Below are positions 1 to 64,000 of a stretch of DNA of 64,000 bases, piece by piece. How positions within the stretch are numbered: position 1 is the first letter of the stretch; each line of letters begins with the position of its first letter. The stretch is from Planctomycetaceae bacterium (GTDB lineage: Bacteria; Planctomycetota; Planctomycetia; Planctomycetales; Planctomycetaceae): NCBI GenBank assembly GCA_021732415.1, contig JAKFVC010000009.1, forward strand, positions 1-64,000, read 5' to 3'. Made by a program: the position numbers and the translations under genes. A model generated the notes under the pieces. That model was not told the DNA's origin and ran no database searches. It saw only the letters and a list, made by a program, of their open reading frames with translations.

Positions 1-4
1 CCAG

Positions 5-36
5 CCCCTCTCCCCGGAGTACCAGGGCGAGGGGAG
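5..36. repeat. Small inverted repeat, CCCCTCTCCCC family
   Basis: Left arm CCCCTCTCCCCGG (5-17) pairs with CCAGGGCGAGGGGAG (22-36). The same arms recur at 56791-56839, and a looser version at 58627-58663. It lies downstream of the SUI1-like gene, whose stop is at 117. It could act as a transcription terminator hairpin, but no T-run follows on the minus strand side, so this is uncertain. Confidence 0.6.
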
Positions 37-116
37 CGAAAACAAAAAACGTTGATGCTATTTGACATGACCTCGTTGGGGTATTGCAAGCATCGCCGGT
101 TTCAACTTGTGATTGT

Positions 117-464
117 CTATCCCTTCACCTTGTAGCCGATCTCCTCCAGCAACTGGCGAACGCGTTCCAGATGCGTGCCCTGGATTTCGAGCTCTTCGCC
201 TTCAAGCGTCCCTCCGGCTCCAATGGACGTCTTCAGCTTCGTGAGTAACGCGGGCAAATCATTCCCGGCCGCCGACAATCCGCGGACGACGGTCACCAGC
301 TTTCCCTTCTTCCGCTTCTCCGTGGAGAGGCGCGCGGTTTGCTGTTTGGGGGGAATCAAGGTGCTCGGCGGAGCGAGTGGCGGACACGTGCATTCCGTCT
401 CCAGCCGGTCACAGCGTTCACAGCGCGGGGGACGGTCAAACACGGTCCCTGCCAATAGGCCCAT
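117..464 (-). CDS. SUI1/eIF1-like translation factor (YciH family)
   Basis: Protein of 115 residues. The C-terminal half (about 50-115) fits the SUI1/eIF1 fold seen in bacterial YciH: a basic start (KRKKGKLVTVVRGL), then a glycine-rich turn (GAGGTLEGEELEIQG) and a final helix ending EEIGYKVKG. YciH-type proteins are thought to influence start-site selection on the small ribosomal subunit, although their bacterial role is not settled. The N-terminus carries CERC and CTC cysteines that could bind a metal; this is only a suggestion. The length matches the family. It stands alone, with a perfect inverted repeat about 38 bases upstream of the start codon. Confidence 0.85.
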   Translation of the reverse strand: MGLLAGTVFDRPPRCERCDRLETECTCPPLAPPSTLIPPKQQTARLSTEKRKKGKLVTVVRGLSAAGNDLPALLTKLKTSIGAGGTLEGEELEIQGTHLERVRQLLEEIGYKVKG

Positions 465-858
465 TTTAAAGAGTCTCTTCTAGGTTGCGAAGTTGCATCA
501 AAGCTTAAGGTCTTAAGCTAATCGATCACGCCGATTCCGGCGAGTGCGAATATCACGGCGGTGGTGTAGTCTGGGTCGACTTTGCTGCCTGCAACGCTCG
601 GGCTGTCAAGTATTTACGACGAGTGAACCGATGAAGGAATGTTAAGGAAACTTCGGCACAACCGACAGCTTCGGCGTGTCCGTTGATTTCCTGACAATCG
701 TTGCTGGCGGCAAGTCATTGGCAGTTGTTGTTGTTTCACCACATCGGCAGAAAATCGGGCCTCGTTTTATAGGGTAGGCTACCTCCGTCGTTCGTGAAGA
801 TCAGTTCACGGACCTTCTGACCCGAGTTTTCCTCTTGCGCGATGTACCGCCACACTTC
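465..858. other. Intergenic region between divergent genes
   Basis: About 390 bases separate the SUI1-like gene (minus strand) from the secreted hydrolase (plus strand), so promoters for both should lie here. Apart from the palindrome at 502-519 I see no confident promoter boxes, repeats or small genes. Confidence 0.5.
502..519. promoter_or_regulatory. Perfect 8+2+8 inverted repeat upstream of the SUI1-like gene
   Basis: AGCTTAAG, two bases, CTTAAGCT. It lies about 38 bases upstream of the minus-strand start at 464, where an operator or promoter-proximal element would be expected. No regulator is identified. It may also be chance, since the core is a simple AT-rich palindrome. Confidence 0.35.
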
Positions 859-2337
859 ATGCTCACCACCGCACGACAAGCCGAAACTTGCCGAGCCAGT
901 CGCAGAATCTGGACATGCTGGGTGGTCTGGTGCGCTCTTTGCGTTCCAGCCTTCGCACAGGACTCAGATTCCCCTGCGACGCTGGGACCGATTCTGATCG
1001 ACCCGGTCGGAAATGAGCAAAGTGTCGACGCCGATGGCCCGTTCATCACGGTGCCGAAGGTCGGACCGCAACTCCCCGAACCGTCTGAATATCCTCCGCG
1101 ACCCAACGTCCCCGGTCAACCTGTTCCACCCGGCGGAGCACCCGAGTTCTACGATCCTGTCTGGGATTACGCGACGGAACCGAATTCGGGCCCCAGCAAC
1201 AAGGCCACGATGCCGCCCGACTACTGGGTGATCAGCTCACGCAACTGTCCCCAGGCGGGCAGCCCCTGCACTGCCGATCAAAACACTCAGTACTATTACT
1301 TTGGTCCCACCGGCAAAGGTGGTCTGCGGAATCCCGCCGATTTTTACTCGACACTCCGTCCCGATGTCCCGGTTTGCATTTTGGTTCACGGCAGTCTCGT
1401 CGGTTGGGATCAGATGCTGACCGACGGCCACCAGACCTATGAATGGTTGAAGAAGTCTCAACCGAACACACCGTTTCGGCTGGTCCTCCTGACGTGGCCG
1501 AGCGAACGCCCCTTGTTGCTGGTTGCCCCGGTCGATTTCACTCTGCTGGGACGGCGTAGCGCCTATAACGGTTTCTATCTGGCTCGCGTCCTGTCGAAAA
1601 TGCCGTCAGAGACATCGGTCAGCATGATTGGACATAGCCACGGGGCGCGGCTGGTCGCTTCGGCCTTGCATCTGGCCGGTGGGGGTGACGCCTACGGCTA
1701 TCGACTTGAGCAACGTGCGACACCCTGGCCCCGCATGCGAGCCATGACGGCTGCCGCGGCTCTCGATCACAATTGGCTGGATCCAGGTGAGCGCTACGAG
1801 CATGCTCTCGACAACGTCGAAAGCTTCGTGAACTTGAGAAATCGCAATGATTTCGCCCTGCGGTTGTATTTATTGCAAGTCCCGCTCAGCCGCGAGTCGC
1901 TCGGCCGAGTCGGATTCAATGCGCGCGATCAGCAGTTGCTGGGTGCCAATTATACGAAGGTCCGCGATGTGGAAGTGTCACCGATTCTGGGGGCTCGGCA
2001 CGTCTGGCCGTGGTTCTACAGTCAACCGGGATTGGCGCGAACGCTGTCTCCATACCTGTTCTTCCAGGAGGATGTCCCGCCGTCACTCGTGCTGAAGCCG
2101 ACCAAGCGGCGTCCGTTTGGATCTCAGCCGGCCCAGATCATTTCGGAAGTCCCACCGCAAATGCAGCGCACGTCAGACGCCAGCAACGCGACCCTGGTCC
2201 GCGGCACGGCTCCGTCGAGGCCCACGCCCCCTCCGCAGCGCGAGACGACCATCAATTCCGAAACAGGCCGAACCTCCACCAGTCCGTCAGCGGTCCGAGT
2301 TTTTAATTCGCCGTTGTCGAGAACGCCGCGGAAGTAG
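859..2337 (+). CDS. Secreted alpha/beta hydrolase
   Basis: Protein of 492 residues from the ATG at 859; a TTG at 835 in the same frame would only add eight residues ahead of the signal peptide. Residues 1-35 look like a Sec signal peptide (hydrophobic WVVWCALCVPAFA, cleavage after AFA). The core has the hydrolase pattern: a strand with an oxyanion motif (CILVHGSLVGW) followed by the nucleophile elbow GHSHGARL around residue 260. That motif resembles the DUF900/esterase-lipase group. A proline- and threonine-rich tail after about residue 410 looks disordered. The substrate is unknown. It is probably periplasmic or exported. It is monocistronic as far as visible. Confidence 0.75.
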   Translation: MLTTARQAETCRASRRIWTCWVVWCALCVPAFAQDSDSPATLGPILIDPVGNEQSVDADGPFITVPKVGPQLPEPSEYPPRPNVPGQPVPPGGAPEFYDPVWDYATEPNSGPSNKATMPPDYWVISSRNCPQAGSPCTADQNTQYYYFGPTGKGGLRNPADFYSTLRPDVPVCILVHGSLVGWDQMLTDGHQTYEWLKKSQPNTPFRLVLLTWPSERPLLLVAPVDFTLLGRRSAYNGFYLARVLSKMPSETSVSMIGHSHGARLVASALHLAGGGDAYGYRLEQRATPWPRMRAMTAAAALDHNWLDPGERYEHALDNVESFVNLRNRNDFALRLYLLQVPLSRESLGRVGFNARDQQLLGANYTKVRDVEVSPILGARHVWPWFYSQPGLARTLSPYLFFQEDVPPSLVLKPTKRRPFGSQPAQIISEVPPQMQRTSDASNATLVRGTAPSRPTPPPQRETTINSETGRTSTSPSAVRVFNSPLSRTPRK

Positions 2338-2480
2338 TAAGTTGCACCCAATCAGTGGTTCGACAAATCAGCCGCAGGGCGTTAGCCCCCGGTTCGATGA
2401 ACAACAACGCTGAGCAATATCACACACGAACCGGACGCTAGCGCGTGCCGGCTAATGATGTCCTAGAGAAGAGATCGCGC

Positions 2481-3443: not shown

Positions 3444-3458
3444 CACGCGGGACGTAAC

Positions 3459-3747
3459 GTGGGACGGGTCTCTGACCCGTCTGAGGCCCGTAACAATCGA
3501 ATTGAAAAAGAGTCCAACCGAGCGAACTTCGCGCAGCGGCCGACTCGCATCAATCAATACGGTCTATTTCCACATCAAACCCAGGAAATCGGGTGCCACT
3601 GGCTATGCCAGTGCATTGCCGGATCGAGGCCCGAATGACCACCAGCACTGGCATAGCCAGTGGCACCCAATCCAAGAGTTTATTGATTGGTCGAGGGCTT
3701 TTCGGGAAATGATCTTCTCACGGACGGGCCTGGAGACCCGTCCCACG
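3459..3747. repeat. Inverted pair of the GGGACGGGTC dispersed repeat
   Basis: The left copy begins GTGGGACGGGTC at 3459 and is a variant carrying an extra GACCCGTCTGAG stretch. The right copy, CGGACGGGCCTGGAGACCCG plus TCCCACG, occupies 3721-3747. The same 27-base element occurs as inverted pairs at 17374/17488, 51829/51989 and 63046/63222. Another inverted repeat (3591-3668) is nested between the arms. The element fills most of the gap between the GlmU-like gene and prs; I see no gene in that 426-base gap. Confidence 0.85.
3591..3668. repeat. Perfect 24-base inverted repeat (GGGTGCCACTGGC)
   Basis: The arm at 3591-3614 (GGGTGCCACTGGCTATGCCA and four more bases) is exactly complementary to 3645-3668, with a 30-base loop. 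Perfect identity of arms this long, with an unrelated loop, suggests recent formation or maintenance by gene conversion. It is nested inside the 3459-3747 pair. Confidence 0.85.
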
Positions 3748-3869
3748 AAAGAAGGCACCCATAAAGTTTGCTGCGGTCTATTGCCAGTTTGGCGGGGGTT
3801 CTCACAATAGGGAGTTGCTGTCGTGTCCGACATGTCTTCCCTGTTCGCTGAGTTCCCCGGAAACTGCCC

Positions 3870-4817
3870 ATGTACGACCACTTGACCCTGATTAGCGGTC
3901 GCGCTCATCCCAAACTGGCCAACGAAATTGGTGACTACCTGGGATTGAGCCTTGGGGCCATTGAGATCTGGAATTTCCCCGACGGTGAGATCGGCGTGAA
4001 AATCAATCAGAACATTCGCGGCTGCGATGTGTTCCTGATCCAGCCGACGTGCCCGCCGGTCAATGAAAATCTGATGGAACTGCTGATCATGATCGACGCG
4101 TGCAAGCGCGCGAGCGCCGCACGGATCACGGCCGTCATCCCCTATTTCGGGTACGCTCGGCAGGACCGCAAGGATTCGGGGCGTGTGCCCATCACGGCCA
4201 AGCTGACCGCCAACCTGATTGTTAATGCCGGGGCCGACCGCGTCCTGACGGTCGATTTGCATGCCGCTCAGATTCAAGGTTTTTTCGATGTGCCGGTCGA
4301 CCACCTGTACTCGGCACCCGTGCTGGATGACTACTTCAAGAAGCTCAATCTGCCGGCAGATAAATTGGTGATTGTCAGCCCCGATGAGGGCAGTATCAAA
4401 CGGACGCTCCAGCATCTGCAGCATCTGGGAGGCGAACTGGCGATCGTTGATAAGCGGCGTTTCAGTGCCACTCAAACGAAACAGGCCCATCTGATCGGTG
4501 GGCCGATTGACGGTCGCATCGCCTTGTTATTTGACGACATGATCACAACGGGGGGGTCGATCACGGGCGCGGTCAATGTCGTCCAGCAATTCGGCGCGGC
4601 CGAGATCTATGTCTGCGCCACGCATCCAGTCCTGTGCGGGAAAGCCGTTGAGAATCTGGGCGCGGCCCCGATCAAGGAGATTGTCGTCTCCAACAGCATT
4701 CCGCTCTCGCCACAACAAATGCTGCCGAACATTCGCGTGGTCAGTCTGGCCCCGTTGCTGGGTGAAGCGATTAAACGCATTCATAAGAACGAGTCGGTGA
4801 GTTATTTGTTTGATTAG
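3870..4817 (+). CDS. prs: Ribose-phosphate pyrophosphokinase
   Basis: Protein of 315 residues, the usual length for class I PRPP synthase. It converts ribose-5-phosphate and ATP to PRPP for nucleotide, histidine and tryptophan synthesis in the cytoplasm. The visible hallmarks are the flexible-loop motif YARQDRKDSGR (about 94-104), the VDLHAAQIQGFF metal/ATP segment (about 129-140) and the PRPP-binding loop FDDMITTGGS (about 219-228). The ATG at 3870 has no strong ribosome-binding site. It is preceded by a gap filled with inverted repeats and followed by another, so it is probably transcribed alone. Confidence 0.97.
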   Translation: MYDHLTLISGRAHPKLANEIGDYLGLSLGAIEIWNFPDGEIGVKINQNIRGCDVFLIQPTCPPVNENLMELLIMIDACKRASAARITAVIPYFGYARQDRKDSGRVPITAKLTANLIVNAGADRVLTVDLHAAQIQGFFDVPVDHLYSAPVLDDYFKKLNLPADKLVIVSPDEGSIKRTLQHLQHLGGELAIVDKRRFSATQTKQAHLIGGPIDGRIALLFDDMITTGGSITGAVNVVQQFGAAEIYVCATHPVLCGKAVENLGAAPIKEIVVSNSIPLSPQQMLPNIRVVSLAPLLGEAIKRIHKNESVSYLFD

Positions 4818-4850
4818 AGATCGTGCGATTGACACGAATTCAAAAAAGAT

Positions 4851-4965
4851 TTGGAACACTAATCTACGCTAATCAACACTAATTCAGAACACTTTAGATC
4901 GCAATCTCGATACGTTCTTCTCCTCCTTCTTATTAGTGTTTATTAGTGAAGATCAGTGTTCCAAA
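4851..4965. repeat. Inverted repeat built from AACACTAAT units
   Basis: The left arm (4851-4884) starts TTGGAACACTAATCTACGCT and the right arm (4931-4965) reads TATTAGTGTTTATTAGTGAA then GATCAGTGTTCCAA. Each arm is a degenerate tandem of an AACACTAAT-like unit, and the two arms are roughly complementary. It fills the gap between prs and the GNAT gene. Confidence 0.7.
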
Positions 4966-5022
4966 AAAACCTGTTCGTCTTCGCTCTGTAATCGGTGCAG
5001 TTTCTGAATTGGATGATCTGCA

Positions 5023-5487: not shown

Positions 5488-5518
5488 GAGTGTGGATCAA
5501 TGCCACCCGTGTTCTGAT

Positions 5519-5605: not shown

Positions 5606-5621
5606 AAATTGCTGGCAATGA

Positions 5622-10678: not shown

Positions 10679-10740
10679 GGTCGGCGGAATTATAGTGCGC
10701 TCATTCTGCGAGGTACAGGAGCAATGACCCCGAGGCAACC

Positions 10741-10941
10741 CAGGCGAGCGTCCGGCGTAAGCCGGATGGTTTTTAGCGACCTTCAATTACCATGCAGGTT
10801 GATCTAAACAGTTGAAGTACCGATCCGCATTGCGCGAGTCCGATGAGAGTCGCCTCGGGTGCGAGTCTGATTGTTTAGATCAACTCGCGCGGTGGTAGTA
10901 CGTCGTCAAAAACCATCCGGCTTACGCCGGACGCTCGCCTG
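10741..10941. repeat. Nested inverted repeat, AGGCGAGCGTCCGGCGTAAG family
   Basis: The outer arms are CAGGCGAGCGTCCGGCGTAA onward (10741-10774) and its complement (10908-10941). An inner pair, GGTTGATCTAAACAG (about 10798) and CTGATTGTTTAGATCAAC (about 10867-10884), is nested inside. Related GCGAGCC-GGCGTAAGC arms appear at 16101, 16231, 26482 and 31109. It lies upstream of mfd and downstream of cdd, and nothing else is visible in this gap. Confidence 0.8.
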
Positions 10942-10972
10942 GTCGGCCACGGGGGCGTAAGCCGTAAACCCT

Positions 10973-11404: not shown

Positions 11405-11635
11405 GCTGTCCCCTCACAGAAATGTCCGAGTCGAATCGAATGATTCTTGACCAGTGAAATGCAGTTGCATCTGGCAATGGTCAATCTGGAGGCGCTGTGG
11501 CCGATTTACCCCGCGCAGGGCAAACGACGCCTGATCTGCGTCCAGCTTACTCAGGCGGAAGCGCGTCGGGAAGATCTTCCTGCAGGAAGTTGCTCTGGAT
11601 GTCGAATTTTTTATTTGAGCGTCGTTTGCCGAATC

Positions 11636-11724
11636 ATAAATCCCATTGGTCCCATCCGTCCCATAAGTCCCATGAATTTGATGGGACAAATAGGACTTAT
11701 GGGACGGATGGGACGGATGGGACT
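11636..11724. repeat. Inverted repeat built from TGGGACGGA units
   Basis: The left arm (11636-11678) is a tandem of CCCATnnGTCC units and the right arm (11680-11724) is a tandem of ATGGGACGG units, with almost no loop. It is a close relative of the element at 5519-5605. The 365-base gap between cdd and the TadG-like gene holds this element and nothing else I can support. A long minus-strand open frame across it is an artefact of the repeat. Confidence 0.75.
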
Positions 11725-11769
11725 GATGAAAGACAGACAGATACCGACCGCCGTGAGAATTGGCGAACG

Positions 11770-12881: not shown

Positions 12882-13136
12882 CGGTCAACTACCTGGAAGA
12901 AATCTCGAGGGAAATTCGGCTCGTGGGAGGAGCGCGCGGGCGCCCTTCCGAGCTAATGTGCGCACGGACCCCCACCCGACGCAATACAAACCGTGTGCCA
13001 ATGGACATCTAACTGGCAAGAAGTGGCGAGGTGGCCGGTGTTGCAGCGAATTCGGTGGCGGCAGGGGCCGAGGGCAGTTCGATCACGACTACCCGACTGA
13101 TAACTCAGATGGAAAGTGTAAACGCCGGTTAACACA

Positions 13137-13386
13137 TTTGGACTGCGGCGATTCATCGCCGCTTTCCTATTCCGGACAGAGAACCGAGCGTCAATGAAAC
13201 ACACATGATCTTAATGTCTTGGAATTCTTCGTGTCCTTTGTGACCTTCTGTTCAAAGAAAGAAATTTGGAACAGAAGGTCACAAAGGACACAAAGGAATT
13301 CAAAGTTCGTTTCGTTACGGATCCGGACGCATTTAGACATTTTGAACCTGCAATTGGAAAGCGGTGATGAATCACCGCAGTCCAAA
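13137..13386. repeat. Nested inverted repeat in the TadE/ExeA divergent gap
   Basis: The outer arms begin TTTGGACTGCGGCGATTCAT (13137-13168) and are complementary to 13356-13386, which ends CACCGCAGTCCAAA, with a few mismatches. Inside is a second pair at 13221-13256 and 13266-13302, made of TTGTGTCCTTTGTGACC-like units. The remaining bases of the 984-base gap (12882-13136, 13387-13759) show no gene or RNA I can recognise, although the TadE promoter should be in the first part. Confidence 0.85.
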
Positions 13387-13759
13387 TGGGCTGTCGTCCC
13401 AAGTCTGCCGAATCGTTAGAAAAAACGACTTTGGAACAATCGGGATACCCCGCAGAGTTTCTCCAGCCTGCCTGTCGAGAACGCCTTTAACCGTTGAAAT
13501 GTTAATGGGTTACGAAGAAAGCGAGACCTTGGAACGGCTGTCCCGCTTGCGTTCAAGTCTGACCGCGCCACGACACGATTAACCGGAGGAATGAATAGCC
13601 TCCATCTGATCGATACAGAGTGACTCGCGGCTCACCTCTGGCGACGGGATGTTGGTACGTCCAACGCTCCGGGCCGAGTCTGCTTGTTTGCCGGGTGGGC
13701 GGTACGCGCCTGTGGGTACAGCGTGGGACCGAGCCGGGTAGAGATCGATCATTAGAACC

Positions 13760-16061: not shown

Positions 16062-16100
16062 GCTGGCATCTGCGCTGTGAGCTCGTTATAGAGACGATCT

Positions 16101-16264
16101 AGGCGAGCCGGGCGGCGTAAGCCCCCGGATTCTTCTCGATTCAGATTTGGAAACACAGAGGCACAGAGAACACAGAGGAATTGAATACTCTCTGTTATCT
16201 CTGTGCCTCTGTGTTTCAGAAATAATCCTGAAGAATCCGGAGGCTTACGCCGCCCGGCTCACCT
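16101..16264. repeat. Nested inverted repeat: GGCGTAAGC arms around CACAGAG arms
   Basis: The outer arms are AGGCGAGCCGGGCGGCGTAA onward (16101-16135) and its complement at 16231-16264. The inner arms are AAACACAGAGGCACAGAGAA onward (16151-16176) and TCTGTTATCTCTGTGCCTCT onward (16190-16217). The outer family is that of 10741-10941; the inner is related to 26360-26447 and 28593-28694. It fills the gap between the ExeA-like gene and lpxK. Confidence 0.85.
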
Positions 16265-16316
16265 AAGAGTCCGTGCGGCGTTGCAAGCACTTTTTCCCCC
16301 GGAATTGCCCCCCGAC

Positions 16317-17414
16317 ATGAACGAGGCCTACCACCGAGCACTCGTGTCAGGGGAGTCGAAGGGTCTGCGGCCGACCTTGATGCGGCTTGGCTTGAGCGGT
16401 CTCGCCGTTGGTTATGGTCTGGCCATGCGACTGCGTTCGCTGGGCTACGCCTGGGGTTGGCTCGAGACCCAACATGTCGCGGTCCCGGTCATCAGTTTGG
16501 GAAACATCACCACCGGGGGAACGGGAAAGACCCCGTTCGCGGCATTTATTGCCCAGTGGTTTCGCGAACGTGAGGTCCGCGTCGCCTTCTTAAGCCGCGG
16601 CTACGGTGCGGACCCAGGAGCAGTAAACGATGAGGCTCTGGTCCTCAATCTGCTCTGCCCCGATGTCCCCCATCTGCAGAACCCCGACCGAGTGGCCTCG
16701 GCACGCATTGCGATGGAGGAGCTCGAGAGTCAGTTGTTGATTCTGGATGACGGCTTCCAGCACCGCCGACTGGGCCGCGATTTGGATGTCGTGCTGATCG
16801 ATGCCACCAATCCCTGGGGTTATGGAGCGTTGCTGCCGCGAGGTTTGTTGCGCGAACCACTCAGCGCACTGCATCGGGCCGGTCTGGTGGTGCTGACCCG
16901 GGTCGATGGTATCTCCGAGGAGCAACTCGAACAGATTCGGCAACGATTGAAAACCGTACGTGGCACGGCGGAATGTGTTGAGACCAGTTTTCCCGTGCGG
17001 CGCCTAGTGAACTCACAAGGGGAAACGGCCGAGTGGTCGACTCTCCTCCCCGGTCAGGTGGCGGCGTTTTGTGGGATCGGCAATCCGACGGCCTTTCAAA
17101 GCTTGCTGGCCCGACGCGGCCTGCCGCTGGCTGCAGACCGGTTCCGCGTCTTTCCCGATCATCATCGCTATTCGCGCGAGGATGTGTACGCCCTCCGCGA
17201 CTGGGCGGACAAGTTAGGCTCGCCGGTGATCCTGACGACGCAAAAGGACCTCGTGAAGCTGGACGTCCCGCGACTGAACCAGTCCCCTCTGTGGGCCGTG
17301 GAAATCGGCACCGAGATTCACGCGGGCCAGGAATTGCTGGAGAAGTACCTCACGGAAGTTTTGCAACGCGTACCGTGGGACGGGTCTCCAGGCCCGTCCG
17401 TCTCCATGGAGTAG
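16317..17414 (+). CDS. lpxK: Tetraacyldisaccharide 4'-kinase (lipid A)
   Basis: Protein of 365 residues from the ATG at 16317 (MNEAYHRALVSG); the upstream in-frame codons belong to a repeat arm and are not used. LpxK phosphorylates the lipid A disaccharide at the 4' position at the inner membrane. The hallmarks are Walker A NITTGGTGKTPFA (about 63-75), SRGYGAD, and the LpxK-specific DDGFQHRRL (about 144-152). The last 11 or so residues (VPWDGSPGPSVSME) are encoded by the 27-base dispersed repeat at 17374, so the natural C-terminus has been replaced or extended by repeat sequence. This supports a lipid-A-containing outer membrane. Confidence 0.93.
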   Translation: MNEAYHRALVSGESKGLRPTLMRLGLSGLAVGYGLAMRLRSLGYAWGWLETQHVAVPVISLGNITTGGTGKTPFAAFIAQWFREREVRVAFLSRGYGADPGAVNDEALVLNLLCPDVPHLQNPDRVASARIAMEELESQLLILDDGFQHRRLGRDLDVVLIDATNPWGYGALLPRGLLREPLSALHRAGLVVLTRVDGISEEQLEQIRQRLKTVRGTAECVETSFPVRRLVNSQGETAEWSTLLPGQVAAFCGIGNPTAFQSLLARRGLPLAADRFRVFPDHHRYSREDVYALRDWADKLGSPVILTTQKDLVKLDVPRLNQSPLWAVEIGTEIHAGQELLEKYLTEVLQRVPWDGSPGPSVSME

Positions 17415-17514
17415 CGGAATCTCGTAAGAGTTCCGCCGCATGGGGACAAACGTAAGAATTCTTACGAATTCTTCTACACCCTGGGGACGGACGGGCCTGG
17501 AGACCCGTCCCACG
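17374..17514. repeat. Inverted pair of the GGGACGGGTC repeat overlapping the lpxK end
   Basis: The copy at 17374-17400 lies inside the end of lpxK and is exactly complementary to the copy at 17488-17514. Between them are a GTAGCGGAATCTCGTAAGAG half-element (17411-17436), seen again at 24274, and the perfect palindrome GTAAGAATTCTTAC (17451-17464). The Uma2-like gene follows at 17608. Confidence 0.9.
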
Positions 17515-17607
17515 ATACGCCGTGAGGATCGTCTCTTGCGGTTCCGTCGAGTACCATAGGGCCGAATCGTTGGACCGCATCTCTTCGCCCTTAATTTCAC
17601 GTGCTCT

Positions 17608-18198
17608 ATGTCATCACCCCCAATTCACACGGCTGAAGAATACGCCGAGCATAAGCTCGATCTGCCCGAGGGGGGCCGCTGGACCGAACTGGTCGCCGGG
17701 GAGATTGTGACCCTGGAGCCTCCGGACGAAGAGCACGGGAATGTCGTCCGGAATCTGATGCTGGCGTTTTCCAGGTTTGCACATAAGACTCAGCAGGGTT
17801 ATGCCTGTTTTGAGATCGGCCTGGTCACCAAGCGTAATCCGGATACGGTCCGCTGCCCCCCCGCCAGCTATTTCACGACGGGTGCTCCGTTTGCTGAAGT
17901 CGACAATCTGATCGCTCGCACGAAGCCTGCAGTCGTCGTCGAGATCGCGTCAACGAACGATCGTCGCCGGCAGATCGAGGACTGCATTCTCGAGTATCAG
18001 GAGTGGGGTGTTCCTCTCGTCTGGGTCGTGGATCCGCATGAGAAGAAGGTTCACACGTTCCAGGTGAATCGCTCGGCTTTGCACTTCTCGCAACATCAGG
18101 TGCTTTACGGCAGTTCGATTTTAGACGGCTTCGAGTGCCCGGTGGGAGATTTGTTTGAGTTGCCACCGTGGTGGAACGCGAAGGTCGGGGCCCCGTAG
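17608..18198 (+). CDS. Uma2-like (DUF820) protein, catalytic Asp possibly missing
   Basis: Protein of 196 residues with the Uma2 layout: an N-terminal WTELVAGEIV, a histidine region EEHGNVVRNL, the nuclease core strand TVRCPPASYF (about 90-99), then VVVEIASTND and the end GVPLVWVVDPHEKKV. Uma2/DUF820 proteins have a restriction-endonuclease-like fold. The family usually has a P-D pair in the core strand (PDVAF type); here the equivalent reads PPAS, so the metal-binding Asp seems to be replaced. It may be inactive or use another residue. Uma2 genes are numerous in cyanobacteria and planctomycetes, with unknown function. Confidence 0.8.
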   Translation: MSSPPIHTAEEYAEHKLDLPEGGRWTELVAGEIVTLEPPDEEHGNVVRNLMLAFSRFAHKTQQGYACFEIGLVTKRNPDTVRCPPASYFTTGAPFAEVDNLIARTKPAVVVEIASTNDRRRQIEDCILEYQEWGVPLVWVVDPHEKKVHTFQVNRSALHFSQHQVLYGSSILDGFECPVGDLFELPPWWNAKVGAP

Positions 18199-18208
18199 CG
18201 CGACTCGC

Positions 18209-18266
18209 CCCCGTGGCCGACGCTGCCAGCGTCGGAGTTCAGACGCTGGCAGCGTCTGCCACGGGG
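18209..18266. repeat. Inverted repeat, CCCCGTGGCCGACGCTGCC
   Basis: The left arm CCCCGTGGCCGACGCTGCCA and five more bases (18209-18233) pairs with the right arm GACGCTGGCAGCGTCTGCCA and five more (18242-18266), with an eight-base loop. It lies directly downstream of the Uma2-like gene and could terminate transcription. Confidence 0.8.
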
Positions 18267-18330
18267 CCTGTTTTCTGTGATTCGCGACAACGGATTGTCA
18301 ATCCGCTCTAATACCGCTACCCAAAAATCA

Positions 18331-18350
18331 CCCGACTCAGCGAGTCGGGC
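18331..18350. repeat. Small hairpin CCCGACTCAGCGAGTCGGGC
   Basis: Near-perfect hairpin, one of a family whose core is CCCGACTC/GAGTCGGG. Others are at 22803-22820, 26219-26275, 34268-34325 and 63078-63215. It lies just before the start of the Nramp-like gene. Confidence 0.75.
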
Positions 18351-18386
18351 TACGTTCCGCTTGCTTGCCCATAAGGATGCCTCACC

Positions 18387-20135
18387 TTGTCGCAGCCACC
18401 TCCGGAATCGGTCGAAGAACTCGTTCCCGATAGTGTCATTCCGCATAAAACTTTGCCGCCGCTGCGGTATCGCGATTTACCCGAAGCTCCCCATTGGCGA
18501 AAACTGGTCGGGCCGAGCATCATCCTGGCGGGGCTGGCTCTCGGGTCGGGCGAGTTCGTCTTCTGGCCGTATGTGACTTACCGGTCCGGCTTCGTTTTCT
18601 TCTGGGCCTGTATGCTCGGCGTGCTGACCCAGTTCTTCATGAACCTGGAGATCGAACGCTGGACGCTGGCAACCGGCGAAAGTGCCATTACGGGCTTCTG
18701 CCGTCTCAGTCGGCACTGGGCCTGGGTGATGTTGACCATGAACGTCGTCCCCTGGATCTGGCCCGGCTGGGCGATGGGGGCCAGTACCTTGCTGAGCTGG
18801 ACGCTGTTCGGGGCCGACATCCAGCCGCAGAAGGCGACCGCGCCGTTGACTCAGATGACGGCCACGATTCCCGCTGAGCTCCAATCGCAGCTCAGTTTCG
18901 ATGCGGCGGGAAAACAGCTCGTGTGGATGGGAGCACAAACCGCGGAGCAAGTCGCAGAATTGAAAGCTCTCGACAGCGCGCCTGAGTTTCAACAAGCCGT
19001 CGCGACGATCTCTGCGAAGGTCCGCAAGACCGGGGGCTTGAAGCATGACGCGTTGTACGTCCCCTGGTTTGCCATCGCGACGCTGTTGCTGGTCGGGATC
19101 GTGCTGACCAGCAGCCCGGTCGTCTATAACACGGTCGAGGCCCTGCAGTCGTACCTCGTCCTGCTGATCTTCGTCATCGCGATCACATTGGGCATCTTGA
19201 TCATCAAGCCGTACGCTGTCTGGGCAATGGTCACAGGCATCATGAATATCGGTGGATTACCCCCGGCGGACAGCGGTCTGGAATTCATGGCCCTGCTGGG
19301 AGCTCTTGCCTTCGCCGGAGCGGGCGGGACGATGAATCTCGGGCAGAGCAATTTCATCCGCGATAAGGGCTACGGGATGGGCAAATACATCGGCCGCATC
19401 ACGAGTCCCCTGACCGGTAATGAAGAACCGATCGCAGATGTCGGGTTCCACTTTCATCACACACCGGAAAACATGCGTCGCTGGCGAGACTGGTGGCGGG
19501 CGGCCAACATCGAACATTTTTTCAGCTTCTACCTGACCTGCGTGGTCTCGCTGATGTTGCTGGCGTTGATCTCCTACTCGCTGTTTTACGGACCCGACGG
19601 CCAGCTGTTGCCCGGTATGGAGCGGTTTGGCAGCGGTTTGGATTTCATCTGGGGCGAAGCGAATCTGGTGCAGAGCAAGTTCTCGATCCCGTGGGTTGGC
19701 AGTGCCTTCCGGCTGCTGTTTTTCGCGATGGGCATGGCCCTGCTGTTCACGACGGAATTGGGCGTCCTGGACGCCGCAGCCCGGATTTCGGCTGACATCA
19801 TCAAGATCAATGTCCTGCGAGAAAATCCCCGCTGGACACTCGCCCGGCTGTACTTTGTCATCCTGTGGACCGAGATCATTCTCAGCGTGGTGATCCTCGC
19901 CGTCGGATTCTCCGAGCCGCTCTTTCTCCTGAAGATGTCGGCCGCGCTGAACGGCATGGTAATGTGCATTTACGGCATGTTGCTGCTCTATCTGAACCTG
20001 AAAATCATGCCCCGCTCGCTGGCGATCACGCCCCTGCGCTTCATCGCGATGGTCTGGGCCTGTGCCTTCTTCGGCTATTTCAGCCTGCAAGCGATCCAAC
20101 TCGAGGTCTGGCCCATGATCAAGAGCTGGTTCTGA
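18387..20135 (+). CDS. Nramp-related membrane transporter, divergent
   Basis: Protein of 582 residues, about 11-12 hydrophobic segments. I chose the TTG at 18387 because an AAGGA motif lies nine to ten bases ahead; the ATG at 18377 is in another frame. The first membrane segment (LVGPSIILAGLALGSGEFVFWPY, about 40-62) and the segment near GAGGTMNLGQSNFIRDKGYG (about 310-330) resemble TM1 and TM6 of Nramp/SLC11 proteins. The metal-binding DPGN of TM1 is not present; GSGEF stands at that place. The ion transported is therefore unknown. A hydrophilic stretch at about 150-210 (between membrane segments) is unusually long. Similar proteins are common in planctomycetes by my recollection. Confidence 0.65.
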   Translation: MSQPPPESVEELVPDSVIPHKTLPPLRYRDLPEAPHWRKLVGPSIILAGLALGSGEFVFWPYVTYRSGFVFFWACMLGVLTQFFMNLEIERWTLATGESAITGFCRLSRHWAWVMLTMNVVPWIWPGWAMGASTLLSWTLFGADIQPQKATAPLTQMTATIPAELQSQLSFDAAGKQLVWMGAQTAEQVAELKALDSAPEFQQAVATISAKVRKTGGLKHDALYVPWFAIATLLLVGIVLTSSPVVYNTVEALQSYLVLLIFVIAITLGILIIKPYAVWAMVTGIMNIGGLPPADSGLEFMALLGALAFAGAGGTMNLGQSNFIRDKGYGMGKYIGRITSPLTGNEEPIADVGFHFHHTPENMRRWRDWWRAANIEHFFSFYLTCVVSLMLLALISYSLFYGPDGQLLPGMERFGSGLDFIWGEANLVQSKFSIPWVGSAFRLLFFAMGMALLFTTELGVLDAAARISADIIKINVLRENPRWTLARLYFVILWTEIILSVVILAVGFSEPLFLLKMSAALNGMVMCIYGMLLLYLNLKIMPRSLAITPLRFIAMVWACAFFGYFSLQAIQLEVWPMIKSWF

Positions 20136-20158: not shown

Positions 20159-20265
20159 TGAACCACGAATGACTCGAATGACACGAATTTGGCAACGGGA
20201 GATTGTTTCCTTCGGATGCAGTCTTAGGTATTTAGATTCGTGTCATTTGTGTGATTTGTGGTTCA
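20159..20265. repeat. Inverted repeat built from ACACGAATGAC units
   Basis: The left arm (20159-20190) begins TGAACCACGAATGACTCGAA and the right arm (20233-20265) ends ATTTGTGTGATTTGTGGTTCA. It is made of ACGAATGAC-like units, with a 42-base loop. It lies between the Nramp-like gene and the small ORF at 20383. Nothing else is visible in this 247-base gap. Confidence 0.75.
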
Positions 20266-21547: not shown

Positions 21548-21562
21548 AATCCAGGATCGGAT

Positions 21563-21656
21563 TTTGACAGAAAAATGGAACGACAGAAAAATGAAGTTGT
21601 GAAGGGACGAGATCCCCACTCGTTTATTTTTCTGTCGTCCCATCTTTCTGTCAAAA
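21563..21656. repeat. Inverted repeat built from GACAGAAAAATGG units
   Basis: The left arm is TTTGACAGAAAAATGGAACG and ten more bases (21563-21592). The right arm, ending TCTTTCTGTCAAAA, is at 21626-21656. It lies between two convergent genes, so it is placed as a bidirectional terminator. Confidence 0.75.
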
Positions 21657-22545: not shown

Positions 22546-22685
22546 TTTTTGGGAGGGCGAGGCTCCCGCCGAGCCTAGTACGACCGCAGGTCGGCGTCCG
22601 CCGGAGGCTGTTTTGATGCCTCCGGCGGACGCCGAGCTAAAGCTCGTCTTAGGCTCGGCGGGAGCCTCGCCCTCCCATCTCAAAA
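22546..22685. repeat. Long inverted repeat, GGGAGGGCGAGGCTCCCGCC family
   Basis: This is the longest stem of the window: about 65-70 bases per side, with a short loop near 22613. The left side begins TTTTTGGGAGGGCGAGGCTC and the right ends GAGCCTCGCCCTCCC. A shorter relative occurs at 53888-53972. It lies in the divergent gap between the lipoprotein and PQQ-propeller genes, which also holds a GACTCTCCGAGTC hairpin at 22803-22820. The remaining bases show nothing I recognise. Confidence 0.9.
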
Positions 22686-24235: not shown

Positions 24236-24273
24236 TGCACTCCTTGACGAGCTAGAGCGTTTCCAAGATTGGT

Positions 24274-24346
24274 GTAGCGGAATCTCGTAAGAGTTCCGCC
24301 CCCAAAGTCTGGAGACTATCGCGGAACTCTCACGAGATTCCGCTAC
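24274..24346. repeat. Inverted repeat GTAGCGGAATCTCGTAAGAG
   Basis: The left arm (24274-24300) and right arm GCGGAACTCTCACGAGATTC plus CGCTAC (24321-24346) pair with one or two mismatches. A single half of this element occurs at 17411-17436. It lies between convergent genes. Confidence 0.8.
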
Positions 24347-24488
24347 AGAGATTCTGGAACTGCTCTAATTCGTCATGCTGAAAAACCTCACGTTGGGACT
24401 GTATTGAAAGCGGATCTGAAGGTGACCAGGCGCGCAACGTGAGGACCGCAACGGCTGAACTGTATTCGCGGGACCGGTGGACGGCCAG

Positions 24489-26359: not shown

Positions 26360-26447
26360 TTAGCCACAGAAGGACACAGAAAAGCACAGAATAAAAGTAG
26401 AGGATTAATTCTTCATTCTGTGTTTTTCTGTGTCCTTCTGTGGCTAA
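26360..26447. repeat. Inverted repeat built from CACAGAAGGA units
   Basis: The left arm TTAGCCACAGAAGGACACAG and 13 more bases (26360-26392) is almost exactly complementary to 26415-26447, with a 22-base loop. A sister element lies at 28593-28694, so the two flank the hydrolase gene. A half-copy of the GGCTTACGCC-type element (26482-26506) follows. Confidence 0.85.
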
Positions 26448-28592: not shown

Positions 28593-28694
28593 AGGATTAG
28601 CCACAGAATGACACAGAAGAAACACAGAAAAAAAGAAGGAATTTCGATTCCTCAATTCTGTGTTTCTTCTGTGTTCTTCTGTGGCTAAATCCTT
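28593..28694. repeat. Inverted repeat, CACAGA family, extended arms
   Basis: The left arm AAGGATTAGCCACAGAATGA and 17 more bases (28593-28630) pairs with 28655-28694. The pairing includes flanking AAGGATT/AATCCTT. It is similar to 26360-26447 but differs in unit order and loop. It occupies the 303-base gap between two genes on the minus strand; nothing else is visible there. Confidence 0.85.
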
Positions 28695-32258: not shown

Positions 32259-32355
32259 CTCGCAATTTGATTTTCGAACTAAGAGCTGAATTTTGACGTA
32301 ATGATGTATCGAGTTTGTTGAGATTAGGGTGAATTTCGAACCTGTAGGGTTCGCA

Positions 32356-32556
32356 GAGAGTAGCCGGTGGTTGAGGAGCGGAGCGACGACACCACCGGTA
32401 AGAGCACCAGTGTGGCCGCATCCTGGAGGGATGCCAGAGAGATGAACCATTCGATATTCGATTCGCGGAATCTCTGCGATCCCTCCAGGATCGGAGACGG
32501 ATTTGGACGTTGTCCGGTGGTGTCGTCGCTTCGCTCCTCAACCACCGGCTACTCTC
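32356..32556. repeat. Nested inverted repeat with 43-base arms (GTAGCCGGTGG)
   Basis: Outer arms: 32356-32399 begins GAGAGTAGCCGGTGGTTGAG and is nearly the exact complement of 32514-32556. The inner pair TCCTGGAGGGATGCCAGAGA (32421-32440) and TCTCTGCGATCCCTCCAGGA (32471-32490) is nested inside. The 418-base gap between the nitrilase and ceramidase-like genes otherwise holds nothing I can support. Confidence 0.9.
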
Positions 32557-32676
32557 TTTAATCCCTCCGGGATACGTTTCGGAATATGTAAGACGCCTGC
32601 CTAGCAACTTCGACGAATGAGAACAAACTCCAAAAATCAGCGGCCCTTAACTTGTACTTTCCTAGCGAGATGACTT

Positions 32677-34267: not shown

Positions 34268-34325
34268 CGTAGCCGGACTCTCTGAGTCGGGTGTGTGTAC
34301 GCCCGACTCAGAGAGTCGGGCTACG
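34268..34325. repeat. Inverted repeat GTAGCCGGACTCTCTGAGTC
   Basis: The left arm (34268-34291) and right arm CCCGACTCAGAGAGTCGGGC plus TACG (about 34302-34325) pair well, each arm also containing the short CCCGACTC/GAGTCGGG hairpin. It sits between the ceramidase-like gene and the LRR gene. Confidence 0.85.
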
Positions 34326-44405: not shown

Positions 44406-44532
44406 TGGTGAGCCCCGTCCCGTCAGGGCGGGAGTGGAGTAGCGACTCCGATTGCCGATACACGTCACTCAATGCCCGTTGCGCAGCGGAACTCTCTACT
44501 CTACCCCCGCCCTGACGGGACGGGGCTCACCA
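44406..44532. repeat. Inverted repeat GGTGAGCCCCGTCCCGTCAG
   Basis: The left arm (44406-44440) reads TGGTGAGCCCCGTCCCGTCA then GGGCGGGAGTGGAG, and the right arm (44497-44532) is its complement, with a few changes. The loop of about 55 bases includes GATTGCCGATACACG. It lies 12 bases from the stop of the VOC gene at 44544. Confidence 0.85.
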
Positions 44533-51828: not shown

Positions 51829-52015
51829 CGTGGGACGGGTCTCCAGGCCCGTCCGTCAGCCTGGGATTTCTATTTCGCTAGATTGGAGAGAAAAAAAATA
51901 ACTACGTGGGCGATCGACTGTGGATTCCTATGCTTTGTTGAGCGTGGCTATTATGCAGCTGCTGGGTGTTTTCTTAAGAAAAATGTGGACGGACGGGCCT
52001 GGAGACCCGTCCCAC
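51829..52015. repeat. Inverted pair of the GGGACGGGTC repeat
   Basis: The copies 51829-51855 and 51989-52015 are identical in reverse complement, with 133 bases between. The left copy is preceded by CCGTAT. This is the only sequence between the SGNH-like and MBOAT genes besides two short stretches without features. Confidence 0.9.
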
Positions 52016-52020
52016 GGTTA

Positions 52021-53424: not shown

Positions 53425-53887
53425 CGCGTTCCGATTGCGACCTGGGAGTCAACCAACGTGACTAACGACATGAAACAACGAACGCGGGCACTCTCGGAGG
53501 CGAGAGCACTTTACAGGGGTGACGGATCACTGCGGAATAGTTGACGGAAAAACGCAATCAGGCCGGCCCATCAATGTCGTGATGGTTGCCTTCTAGCGGA
53601 ATGGGCGCAAATTGGTCTGGGGAAATGTGCCGGATTTTTACCGTAAGTGTCAAATTCTGGCAATACCTATTGTTTCGACCACTGATGACATTGCGGGAAG
53701 GTTGTTTTTTCGATGTCGGTACGGAAATCCGCGGCGATTCATGGCAATCATTGTCCGGACGAAGAGTCCTTGCCACTGATGGACACGGATCATTTGGCAC
53801 GGGATTTCACCCTGGCAGGGCAACGCCATGAAGGATTTTTGTCAGGGATTATTGCAAGAAGATGGTTCCATTTGTGATTCGAGTCGA
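53425..53887. other. Gene-free stretch
   Basis: About 460 bases before the hairpin. Short frames on both strands (for example 53558-53800) lack features. A remnant of a downstream frame is discussed under the XRE gene. Confidence 0.4.
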
Positions 53888-53972
53888 TGGGAGGGTGAGT
53901 CTCCTGCCGAACCGGATAGTCTGGCGAAGGCCGATAAACGCTTGCGGTTCGGCGGGAGCCTCACCCTCCCGT
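53888..53972. repeat. Inverted repeat of the GGGAGGGTGAGTCTCC family
   Basis: The left arm ATGGGAGGGTGAGTCTCCTG and eight more bases (53888-53915) pairs with 53945-53972. It is a shorter relative of 22546-22685. A 57-codon minus-strand frame runs across it. Confidence 0.85.
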
Positions 53973-54029
53973 GACGTCGAAATATCCTTCACGGCGTAGC
54001 CTGCCGGAGTGAGGATTTCCATGCCGTCG

Positions 54030-56566: not shown

Positions 56567-56790
56567 CGGGGGATCCTCGAGCGATGGTTTCAACAATTCA
56601 CAACAACCACAGGCCGGCGCAGGTTTATTCCTACCACATTAGCCGCCGAGGGCTGTCGCGTAAATTGTATCGAATGGCCGAGCAGTCCGAAGATGGTTTA
56701 AAAGGTGCGGAGGTTTGCTGCGACCCCTTGCGGCATTGGTATCTACACAACGCATTTGTTCAAAAAAATACTGAATAAATGAAGGAAACT
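56567..56790. other. Upstream region of the copper amine oxidase gene
   Basis: The promoter of the amine oxidase should lie here. I see no repeat, RNA gene or supported frame. Confidence 0.4.
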
Positions 56791-56839
56791 GCTCCCCTCT
56801 CCCCGCCCGGTTCGTTTTTCCGGCCAGGGCGAGGGGAGC
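56791..56839. repeat. Inverted repeat GCTCCCCTCTCCCCGCCCGG
   Basis: Left arm 56791-56810 pairs with 56820-56839 (CCGGCCAGGGCGAGGGGAGC) around a nine-base loop. It matches the arms at 5-36. Confidence 0.8.
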
Positions 56840-56929
56840 GAAATCTCGTCATTTTTCCAGGGATTTGCTCGGCGTAGTCGGTTGCGTAGATACCAATGCC
56901 CTCCAGGGTCGGGGCAAACGCAAAAACGA

Positions 56930-56958: not shown

Positions 56959-57020
56959 GGGCTAATAGCTGTCACCCCTGCCGGGGTGAAATCTAATTCA
57001 TTCTGAATCGGTGCTCACCG

Positions 57021-58626: not shown

Positions 58627-58663
58627 TCTCCCCTTGCCCACCGTACTTCGGGGACAAGGGGAG
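58627..58663. repeat. Small inverted repeat TCTCCCCTTGCCC
   Basis: The left arm at 58627-58639 pairs with GGGACAAGGGGAGC (58650-58663). It is related to the CCCCTCTCCCC elements at 5 and 56791. It is about 60 bases downstream of the MBL-fold gene's stop on the minus strand, so it may act as a terminator. Confidence 0.65.
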
Positions 58664-58721
58664 CGAGTTTTCCCATCAGCGGCCAGTCATCGAGACTGCT
58701 GCTGAGACCAACACGATTGCC

Positions 58722-61460: not shown

Positions 61461-61708
61461 CTCGGTCTCCCTTTCATTGAAGTGGATGGAACACACGAAG
61501 CTCTGCCAGAATCTCCGGCAAAATGCGGTTGTGATGCTGTGGCGCGGCGAACGGTGAATCAATTCTGTGATTGATCCGCGGCCAAGCCGTACTCCGACCC
61601 GCTAGCGTTGATTAGCGAGCTACGCTAATGAACACTGCGAGCTAGGTCGGTGAGCAGAAAATTTATTCGGTTGAGCCCGTGTTGTTTGAAAGCGTGATCT
61701 GTTCTCAA

Positions 61709-62704: not shown

Positions 62705-63045
62705 GGTGAAACCCTTCATACTCGGCCTGAGAGCGATTGCTTAGCCTGCAAAGCGATTGCTCTGCAGTGCCATCCCTAACTTTCCCAAGTTGGCGTTGCC
62801 CGAAGGGTGTTTTAACCGTAACACGTGCTCACTTGCAACCTAGCGGTCTCTAAAAAAATAGTGAAGACAAGTTTATAAAATATTTGCTCCACAGAGCGGT
62901 CAGATGCTCACTAAGGGTTTTCACCCAAATGGGTAGGAATGCATGTTGGGGGATCGAGGATTTGCCCGGACAGGCTACGCTGCGAAGGACTTCGTAGCAG
63001 ATTCACCAAGAGTTGTGGCAGCCTCGAAGAGGGCCCCGACGGTAT

Positions 63046-63248
63046 CGTGGGACGGGTCTCCAGGCCCGTCCGTCCCTCCCGTAGCGTGACTCTCCAGAGT
63101 CGAGCGAATTCCTTGCGATTCGAGCAGCGCAGAACACGTTCCCGCGCACGTCAACACAAATCTGTGAGTCGTTGTTCCGCGAGGTTCGCCCGACTCTGGA
63201 GAGTTAGGCTACGACGGGGGACGGACGGGCCTGGAGACCCGTCCCACG
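63046..63248. repeat. Nested pair: GGGACGGGTC arms around CCCGACTCTGG arms
   Basis: The outer copies 63046-63072 and 63222-63248 are the 27-base repeat in inverted orientation. Inside, TCCCGTAGCGTGACTCTCCA onward (63077 region) pairs with 63190-63215 (CCCGACTCTGGAGAGTTAGG), a CCCGACTC-type element. The 655-base gap between the DUF3616 and efp genes holds no other supported feature. Confidence 0.9.
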
Positions 63249-63359
63249 GTGTCATCCTGCCGAGGGATCAACGTCAAAAAGCGCAAGCGAGCGATCTTCC
63301 CGTGATTGCCGGGAAAATACGCTCGCTTACGCTTCGAATTGAGCTATGGTCAAAACGTC

Positions 63360-63932
63360 TTACGTTATCCGGCGTTTGAATTCGCCGGATTCCGTGTCGA
63401 TTTCGATTTTGTCGCCGATTTCGACGAACGCCGAAACCTGCATCTCGTGTTTCGTCCCCTTCAGGATCGCCGACTTGGTGATTTTTCCAGAAGTATCGCC
63501 ACGAGCGGCCGGTTCGGTGTATTCCACTTCGCGAATGATCGAACGCGGCAGGACCACGGAAATCGGCGTCCCTTCGTAGAACGTCACTTCGCAGACGTCG
63601 GTCATGTCCGGGGCGAGGAATTTTTCCAGGTCGGCGATGACTTCGGCGTCGATTTCGTACTGATTGAATTCCGAGTCGACGAAGACGTGCGACGGCGGAG
63701 CAAAGTAGGAATAGGTACACGGCTTCTTTTCGAGAATCACTCCTTCGAGCTTTTCGTCAGCCTTCCAGATCAGTTCTGAAATGCGGTTGGTCATCAGGTT
63801 CTTCGCCTTGACCTTGATCACCGCGGCGTTGCGGCCCGATTTGTTGTACTGTTTGTTCATCACAACAACGGGTTGACCTTCGACGATGATGACGTTGCCT
63901 ACCACCAGGTCGCCAGCAATCTTGACACTCAT
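63360..63932 (-). CDS. efp: Elongation factor P
   Basis: Protein of 190 residues with the three EF-P domains: KOW-like (about 1-65), OB1 (about 67-125) and OB2 (about 130-190). EF-P relieves ribosome stalling at proline runs. The loop that carries the modified residue reads NKSGRNAAV (Arg34 when Met is 1), as in Pseudomonas-type EF-P with a rhamnosylated Arg32, not the Lys loop of E. coli (PGKGQA). This predicts an EarP-type modification. No earP gene is in this window. The start follows a region with TTTTCCC; no clear ribosome-binding site was identified. Confidence 0.96.
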   Translation of the reverse strand: MSVKIAGDLVVGNVIIVEGQPVVVMNKQYNKSGRNAAVIKVKAKNLMTNRISELIWKADEKLEGVILEKKPCTYSYFAPPSHVFVDSEFNQYEIDAEVIADLEKFLAPDMTDVCEVTFYEGTPISVVLPRSIIREVEYTEPAARGDTSGKITKSAILKGTKHEMQVSAFVEIGDKIEIDTESGEFKRRIT

Positions 63933-64000
63933 AAGACTTTTCCCAATTTGACAGACAAAGTTGATAAATCGACCCGGCGAACCGTAAATCGGACGGGTGG

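Follow-up and report, generated by a model that had tools for sequence, protein, structure and literature searches.

Short-Unit Hairpins in Planctomycete Intergenic DNA and Their Association with GxxExxY and Four-Helix-Bundle Genes

Introduction

Large inverted repeats occupy many of the longer gaps between genes in a 64,000-nt stretch of a Planctomycetaceae bacterium genome (GenBank assembly GCA_021732415.1, contig JAKFVC010000009.1, positions 1 to 64,000; "the window" below), raising the question of what makes them and how they come to be dispersed. A first, sequence-only reading of the window saw a dozen or more families with one common architecture, produced or maintained by some active process. 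Two kinds can now be distinguished. The majority (class A) are repetitive extragenic palindromic (REP) sequences in inverted pairs, of the already known REPIN or bacterial interspersed mosaic element (BIME) type. The minority (class B) have arms of tandem 7-15 bp units with variable spacers, and are probably copies, lacking a gene, of minimal elements that in complete form carry one for either a GxxExxY protein or a four-helix-bundle protein.

Distribution of Inverted Repeats

A gapless search (match +1, mismatch -2, score at least 13, loop at most 150) of the 42 window gaps, 15.6 kb including 30-bp margins, yielded 27 non-overlapping inverted repeats. Five dinucleotide shuffles of the same gaps yielded 0, 1, 0, 0, and 0, and the 50.9 kb of coding sequence in the window contains one; a second search (arms of at least 15, spacer at most 200) found 37 pairs. 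A larger sample of the same genome (12 contigs, 1.26 Mb) has 360, compared to two after shuffling. The proposal that their density exceeds that of composition-matched shuffled gaps is therefore solid. Many sequence families had also been proposed, and clustering of the 360 arms does give tens of them, two of which are large (78 and 77) and many small. The same clustering rules out a single class for all hairpins, and the supposed common architecture does not survive: inverted pairs of REPs account for most arms, and only a minority, eight hairpins in the window, consist of tandem short units.

Their placement is not random. Inverted repeats are found in 21 of the 36 gaps of at least 100 bp and in none of the six shorter ones. 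Divergent, convergent, and tandem gaps had been described as alike, but convergent gaps have about three times the hairpin density of divergent ones, and hairpins in tandem gaps are nearer the upstream stop codon (median 40 bp past it, and 163 bp ahead of the downstream start). Covariation of the arms, likewise anticipated, was not seen within families: paired arms were 0.906 identical and permuted ones about 0.910, with 368 of 2000 permutations as high as or above the paired-arm identity (n = 16). Since paired arms are no more alike than unpaired ones in this small sample, arm complementarity is attributed to both arms matching the family unit; concerted arm change was found at orthologous sites in single cases only.

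Class B Hairpins and Their Gene-Bearing Counterparts

Class B hairpins were recognized by unit-chain and family tests; a fixed-lag period test missed the families with variable spacing. By motif list, they make up about 61 of the 360 inverted repeats in the 1.26 Mb, with units that include CACAGAG, CACAGAAG, CACTAAT, CACGAAT, CACGAAG/CACAAAG, CGCAAAG, CACGGAG, GTCCCAT, and GACAGAAAAATG, among others. The eight in the window have DNA-fold z scores from -6.5 to -12.5, and six of these have counterparts among the arms beside GxxExxY-type (PF13366) genes elsewhere in the genome, in two cases identical over 34-35 bp. The hairpin at 4850-4965 (CACTAATC units, 34-bp arms, z -6.5) has an arm identical at 34 of 34 positions to the outer arm beside GxxExxY gene L010, and the one at 28597-28688 (CACAGAAG units, z -11.9) at 35 of 35 to an arm beside L011; the hairpin at 26360-26447 (CACAGAAGG units, z -12.5) also matches an arm beside L011 (36/39). 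Arms beside GxxExxY genes L012 and L013 correspond to the hairpins at 13227-13295 (CACAAAG/CACGAAG units, GTGTCCTTTGTGACC on the plus strand, z -9.1; 29/30) and 16150-16217 (CACAGAG units, z -10.9; 27/29), which are enclosed by class A pairs at 13135-13388 and 16100-16265, respectively. The sixth, at 21562-21656 (GACAGAAAAATG units, z -7.2), matches a hairpin beside the PDDEXK_3 gene L015 (29/30). The other two are at 11634-11729 (GTCCCATCC units, 40-bp arms, z -8.6) and 20159-20265 (CACGAATGA units, z -6.6). No gene-bearing version of the GTCCCAT or CACGAAT hairpins was found among the PF13366 and Y1_Tnp loci of this genome or the long-loop repeats of the 1.26 Mb.

A profile search found seven PF13366 matches (GxxExxY, TIGR04256) in the genome, with scores above the curated cut-off and the GxxExxY and D..ExK motifs present. 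A 42-bp class B inverted repeat encloses the gene L009 in its loop; L010 and L011 each have a class B hairpin on either side; one or two such hairpins, matching window arms, adjoin L012, L013, and L015; and L014 is at a contig edge. The arrangement is not peculiar to this genome. Within its phylum, short-unit inverted arms are present at the gene in 22 of 25 complete PF13366 loci, and across some 20 phyla, an arm pair with a score of at least 14 brackets the gene in 48 of 79 usable loci, but at none of 389 control positions in the same loci (with a cut-off of 12, 60/79 and 11/389). In many phyla, the distance from arm to gene end is mostly under 100 bp. The arms are also oriented: in the left one, the CRC unit has the same sense as the gene in 43 of the 48 loci and is antisense in two. 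Units are mostly 8-11 bp and of CRCRRAK type. Some genes have N- or C-terminal codons running into the arms, which fits a compact element. Gene and arms also tend to be found in the same genomes: at least two ACCACAGAGNCACAGAG (CACAGAG) arms are present in 46 of 136 genomes with PF13366, compared to 6 of 152 without.

The gene itself appears to be maintained. The D, ExK, and GxxExxY motifs are invariant or nearly so, and between congeners nonsynonymous differences per site (pN) are about 0.16-0.21 and synonymous ones (pS) about 0.8, near saturation; with a pN/pS of about 0.2, GxxExxY genes are under purifying selection. They are present in about half of the planctomycete genomes sampled, as are four-helix-bundle proteins. 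An AlphaFold model is confident (pLDDT 92.9), and no sequence relatives of the protein were found in the PDB. Two other settings for it were considered and rejected: a defense system (no PADLOC match) and spread on plasmids (only eight plasmid records with a relative of L009).

Genes for four-helix-bundle proteins (S23/IVP, PF05635) have the same layout. Short-unit inverted arms bracket 22 of 28 such loci in the phylum, compared to 0 of 112 controls, with a period that is mostly 7 or its multiple 14, and sometimes 8. The genome of the window has a single one, L016, with TGTATGAGAGTGTGAGAG.. arms; its flanks read as protein-coding rather than as the ribosomal RNA (rRNA) gene of an intervening sequence, although rRNA was not specifically searched for. 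A search of the openly licensed literature found no paper giving GxxExxY a role and none linking GxxExxY, PDDEXK_3, or S23 genes to short-unit arms.

Unit Sequence and Protein Clade

The sequence of the unit follows the clade of the protein. GxxExxY proteins with a C-terminus of LKDGIKR type are paired with units ending in G in 71 of 72 cases, and those ending in E[YF]KR (EYKR type) with units ending in T or A in nine of nine, a contrast of RRAG with GAT, GAA, or AAT. CRCRGAT, ACAGGAT, GAA, and AAT units are found at about 20 additional EYKR-type loci, which belong to other planctomycete families. On a tree of 138 proteins, three changes of unit label are needed, compared to 25.8 when labels are shuffled (none of 500 shuffles as low), a statistic inflated by near-copies and by the mostly planctomycete EYKR set. 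Host composition does not explain the match, because one genome holds both types of protein, each with its own unit.

Orthologous Sites in Congeners

Comparison to congeners shows hairpins and genes being present, absent, or replaced at the same sites. Orthologous stretches of G295, the nearest congener, are about 84-90% identical to those here. In G295, the L010 site is some 700 bp shorter, with the element cleanly absent, while in G296 a different short-unit hairpin is found there; at the L012 site, both congeners have another hairpin family and no gene. The L009 element is shared by all four congeners (L009, L130, L131, L132) at one position, flanked by the same pair of genes; in G296, its own gene is broken. 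Both arms are built of CACAGAT units here and of CACGGAT units in the other congeners.

Window hairpins show a similar range. G295 has a CACAGAT-type hairpin in the gap corresponding to 4850 and a CTTTGTGTCCTTCGTG hairpin in that corresponding to 26360, a shortened form of the 11634 hairpin, and nothing at 21562, where the gap is 52 bp rather than 151 bp. Its copy of the 28597 hairpin has nearly identical arms and a diverged loop; in G296, this gap has a GTCCCAT hairpin. G295 also retains the 13227 hairpin, in which one compensatory pair is seen (GTGACC/GGTCAC to GTGATC/GATCAC). As the inner hairpin is shared and the outer REP pair (13135-13388) was not seen around the G295 copy, the pair was either gained here or lost there. 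In G296, neither the 16100 nor the 16150 hairpin was seen in a much shorter orthologous gap, and the gap corresponding to 20159 has related sequence of GAATGAC/ATTCGTCATT type. Class A sites vary as well: the REP pair at 32341-32571 is absent in G295 (gap of 58 bp, compared to 418 bp here), and the site of 34268-34325 has a single REP. That some active process is at work, as the sequence-only reading suspected, is upheld.

A Proposed Minimal Element

The proposal starts from what is seen directly at these loci, namely the bracketing of the genes and its spread over phyla, the match of unit to clade, the near-identity of gene-less and gene-flanking arms, presence or absence in congeners, and selection on the gene. 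A full element would consist of an arm of tandem short units, a small gene, and the inverted arm, the gene coding either for a GxxExxY nuclease of the PD-(D/E)XK type (mostly with 8-11 bp, CRCRRAK-type units) or for a four-helix-bundle S23/IVP protein (mostly with 7-bp units). The nuclease might recognize unit arrays folded into a hairpin or cruciform and cut or otherwise process them, and repair could then carry a copy of the array, either alone or together with the gene, into further gaps; the GxxExxY enzyme would thus have a part in movement. Resident genes would act in trans and the hairpins would be their dependants, as REPs are presumed to be of their REP-associated tyrosine transposases (RAYTs).

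Several observations weigh against this reading. Two of the window families, those at 11634 and 20159, have no gene-bearing partner in this genome, and at the stricter cut-off, about 40% of the GxxExxY loci from other phyla lack a clear bracket. CACAGAG arms, 12-115 per genome, are also present in six genomes without a detectable GxxExxY (PF13366) gene (G258, G251, G048, G036, G214, and G202), among them a single-contig assembly with a completeness rating of 100%; the places inspected in them are gene-less hairpins or single arms, perhaps left over from a lost gene, or else pointing to a different mover. The best PDB fold match to the GxxExxY model, an archaeal Holliday junction resolvase, is not significant (E 0.017, TM 0.41), and is followed by SSO0001, a Cas4-family protein, and other nucleases; with E above 0.01 for all of them, the likeness to a resolvase is a hint only. 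Nearly all EYKR loci of known unit come from planctomycetes, so few independent changes underlie the link between protein and motif. Finally, no transposition event was observed for class B, and although empty sites were found, their flanks are only 85-90% alike, so that no target-site duplication is readable.

The hairpins might instead be made and moved by an unlinked enzyme, such as a RAYT, another transposase, or host repair, with the GxxExxY and four-helix genes as cargo that aids persistence through addiction, repair, or regulation. The presence of two unrelated proteins in one architecture does suggest that the protein may be a passenger, and so counts against its being the mover, as do the genomes with arms and no GxxExxY gene. 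Terminal inverted repeats (TIRs) flanking RAYT genes have been described (PMC3733652), and RAYT activity may carry some class B hairpins here: 17 of the 61 in the 1.26 Mb are between inverted REP pairs, compared to 57 of 1500 random gap positions, and the two enclosed hairpins of the window show the same arrangement. This excess may also come from a common tolerance for insertion in the same part of a gap. Symmetric nesting was examined as a sign of fold-back copying and rejected: most of the symmetric cases turn out to be one composite class A palindrome each. The class B cases are mostly asymmetric, and therefore look more like insertions into or next to REPINs. Against a passenger, the unit sequence tracks the GxxExxY clade, which would not be expected of cargo; the arms co-occur with the gene; and the RAYT loci of this genome are flanked by REP-type repeats rather than class B arms. 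On balance we consider this alternative unlikely, though it deserves to be kept in mind.

A role at the RNA level seems more doubtful still. The hairpins could be transcribed stems that protect 3' untranslated regions, are processed by RNase III, or insulate convergent genes, with the small proteins binding or cutting them. In rRNA intervening sequences, which carry genes for S23/IVP proteins, the terminal inverted repeats pair into a stem that RNase III cleaves (PMC4990558); the greater density in convergent gaps and the position shortly past upstream stop codons would be in keeping with this, as would the 28597 hairpin, whose arms are kept while the loop has diverged. Selection against insertion into promoters would produce the same position past stop codons, however, the presence, absence, and replacement among congeners amount to poor conservation for a regulatory RNA, and the hairpins have no match to known RNA families in Rfam.

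It is very improbable that all of the hairpins are ordinary REP/RAYT or TIRtron repeats, with the GxxExxY link a matter of chance neighborhood in repeat-rich gaps. Most window hairpins are indeed REPs, RAYT genes are present, and RAYT genes have been described with unrelated TIRs on their flanks (PMC3733652), but this explanation is already contradicted by the bracketing of GxxExxY genes in so many loci and no control position, with arms close to the gene ends in many phyla, by the bracketing of four-helix genes, and by the tree test, in which motif tracks protein clade. Intrinsic terminators, which the enrichment past stop codons and in convergent gaps might bring to mind and which the sequence-only reading had rightly set aside, can be dismissed: a T-run adjoins only 22 of the 360 hairpins, terminator-like sites barely exceed those in shuffles, and the hairpins belong to many unrelated sequence families in repeated copies.

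Returning to the minimal element, a wider claim is quite possible, if somewhat short of probable: that GxxExxY and S23-type proteins are self-mobilizing factors of widespread, undescribed elements of about 0.5 kb with tandem-unit ends, that the array is a modular recognition code evolving with the protein, and that the gene-less hairpins left behind fill intergenic DNA in many phyla. Tying these proteins to their own repeats would give them a testable substrate and explain much repetitive intergenic DNA that is so far unassigned, and if the arrays are a code read by the protein, natural variation supplies ready-made specificity pairs.

Class A Repeats and RAYT Genes

Class A arms often start with GTAG or GTGG, and many are self-palindromic. 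GTAG-tagged examples such as GTAGCGGAATCTCGTAAGAGTTCCGC and GTAGCCCGACTCTCTGAGTCGGG have many intergenic copies; some families have no clear GTAG. The genome has 13 matches to Y1_Tnp (IS200-like, RAYT) by profile search. The best-matched RAYT loci (L001-L006) have long inverted repeats of REP type on their flanks, and L007 and L008 carry a AAAGGGGACAGGTCCATT repeat. The repeat flanking L005, GTAGCCGGTGG..CCACCGG, is of the same REP type as the GTAG pair at 32341-32571 in the window (GTAGCCGGTGGTTGAG..CACCACCGG). Class A and the resident RAYTs fit the GTAG-REP/RAYT system (PMC3733652), with the REPINs presumably dispersed by these IS200-like HUH transposases. The earlier impression that no described family fits thus fails for the majority of hairpins, and holds for the short-unit minority as far as the literature was searched.

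Two further GTAG-tagged pairs in the window are at 24245-24375 (GTAGCGGAATCTCGTAAGAGTTCCGC) and 34268-34325 (GTAGCCGGACTCTCTGAGTCGGG). The pairs enclosing class B hairpins are TTTGGACTGCGGYGATTCATCRCCGC (13135-13388) and AGGCGAGCCGGGCGGCG (16100-16265). The CGTGGGACGGGTCTCCAGGCCCGTCC type, found at 51 places in the 1.26 Mb, is at 17368-17520 and again at 51829-52016, and the pair GGGTGCCACTGGC..GCCAGTGC at 3591-3668 belongs to a cluster of 12. A pair at 63046-63248 (CGTGGGACGGG) encloses a second REP pair, GTAGCGTGACTCTCCAGAGTC, at 63080-63213, and 22550-22677 is a composite palindrome (TGGGAGGGCGAGGCTCCCGCCGAGCC). The remaining pairs are at 10740-10942 (CAGGCGAGCGTCCGGCG type), 18209-18266 (CCCCGTGGCCGACGCTGCCAGCGTCGG), 44406-44532 (CCCCGTCCCGTCAGGGCGGG..GTAGCG), and 53878-53981 (GGGAGGGTGAGTCTCCTGCCGAACCG). 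An inverted repeat of another kind, at 56713-56919, has two copies in the 1.26 Mb.

Two families elsewhere in the genome may be mentioned. One, with seven copies and a fixed 34-bp loop (GGGGTCGGGCGTTCAAATTTC), flanks a Y1_Tnp gene (18096-18395) on contig C5 (about 17041-18579), and is likely the TIR family of that gene. The other is a palindromic family of seven members (CGCCCCCGTTGGGC) on contigs C2, C6, C7, and C9, mostly with a 144-bp loop and a nested inner repeat; two copies on C9 bracket a gene of 162 amino acids (3560-4045).

Relation to Known Systems

Class A shares with the REP/REPIN (BIME) repeats and RAYT genes of the GTAG superfamily its tagged palindromes, inverted pairs, intergenic sites, many families, and REP-flanked RAYT genes. 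Class B resembles that system in having few genes, many gene-less hairpins, and a repeat type tied to protein type, but its arms are tandem 7-15 bp units rather than a tagged palindrome, and instead of an HUH transposase, the linked genes encode a PD-(D/E)XK nuclease or a four-helix-bundle protein. No HUH Y1 transposase was found between class B arms, the examined RAYT loci being flanked by other repeats. TIRtrons and their TIRYT genes (PMC3733652) likewise have a short gene within long inverted repeats, and dispersed copies consisting of TIRs only; the protein is unrelated to those of class B, and the arms share GGGGWSAS or are self-complementary, rather than being arrays of short units (PMC3733652). 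As in miniature inverted-repeat transposable elements (MITEs), gene-less inverted-repeat copies share their ends with a gene-bearing element in the same genome, which is the case for the six matched window hairpins. Class B differs in having tandem-unit arms, a gene-bearing form of only about 0.5 kb, and no DDE transposase: its partners are PF13366 (PDDEXK_3) or PF05635 proteins, with no transposase domain. No target-site duplication was seen at empty sites with flanks 85-90% alike. Class B may work like RAYT/REP or MITE systems, but because the encoded proteins are not transposases, it falls outside both.

Among other prokaryotic PD-(D/E)XK nucleases, the Rpn/YhgA-like recombination-promoting nucleases are also reported to be linked to DNA mobilization (PMC5350276, PMC10327210), and form a separate Pfam family (PF04754). 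Tandem 7-bp units in intergenic DNA are likewise known from the TAACTGA heptamers of Beggiatoaceae; these are direct and almost never inverted repeats, and the portion of that report consulted mentions no linked gene family (PMC4679880). The intervening sequences of 23S rRNA (PMC4990558), which have been proposed to be selfish or mobile, encode a protein of the same family (PF05635) within terminal inverted repeats. Here, the gene is between protein genes, the arms are of short units, and the layout is common to GxxExxY genes; the proposed elements would set rRNA intervening sequences within a wider class of hairpin-borne genes.

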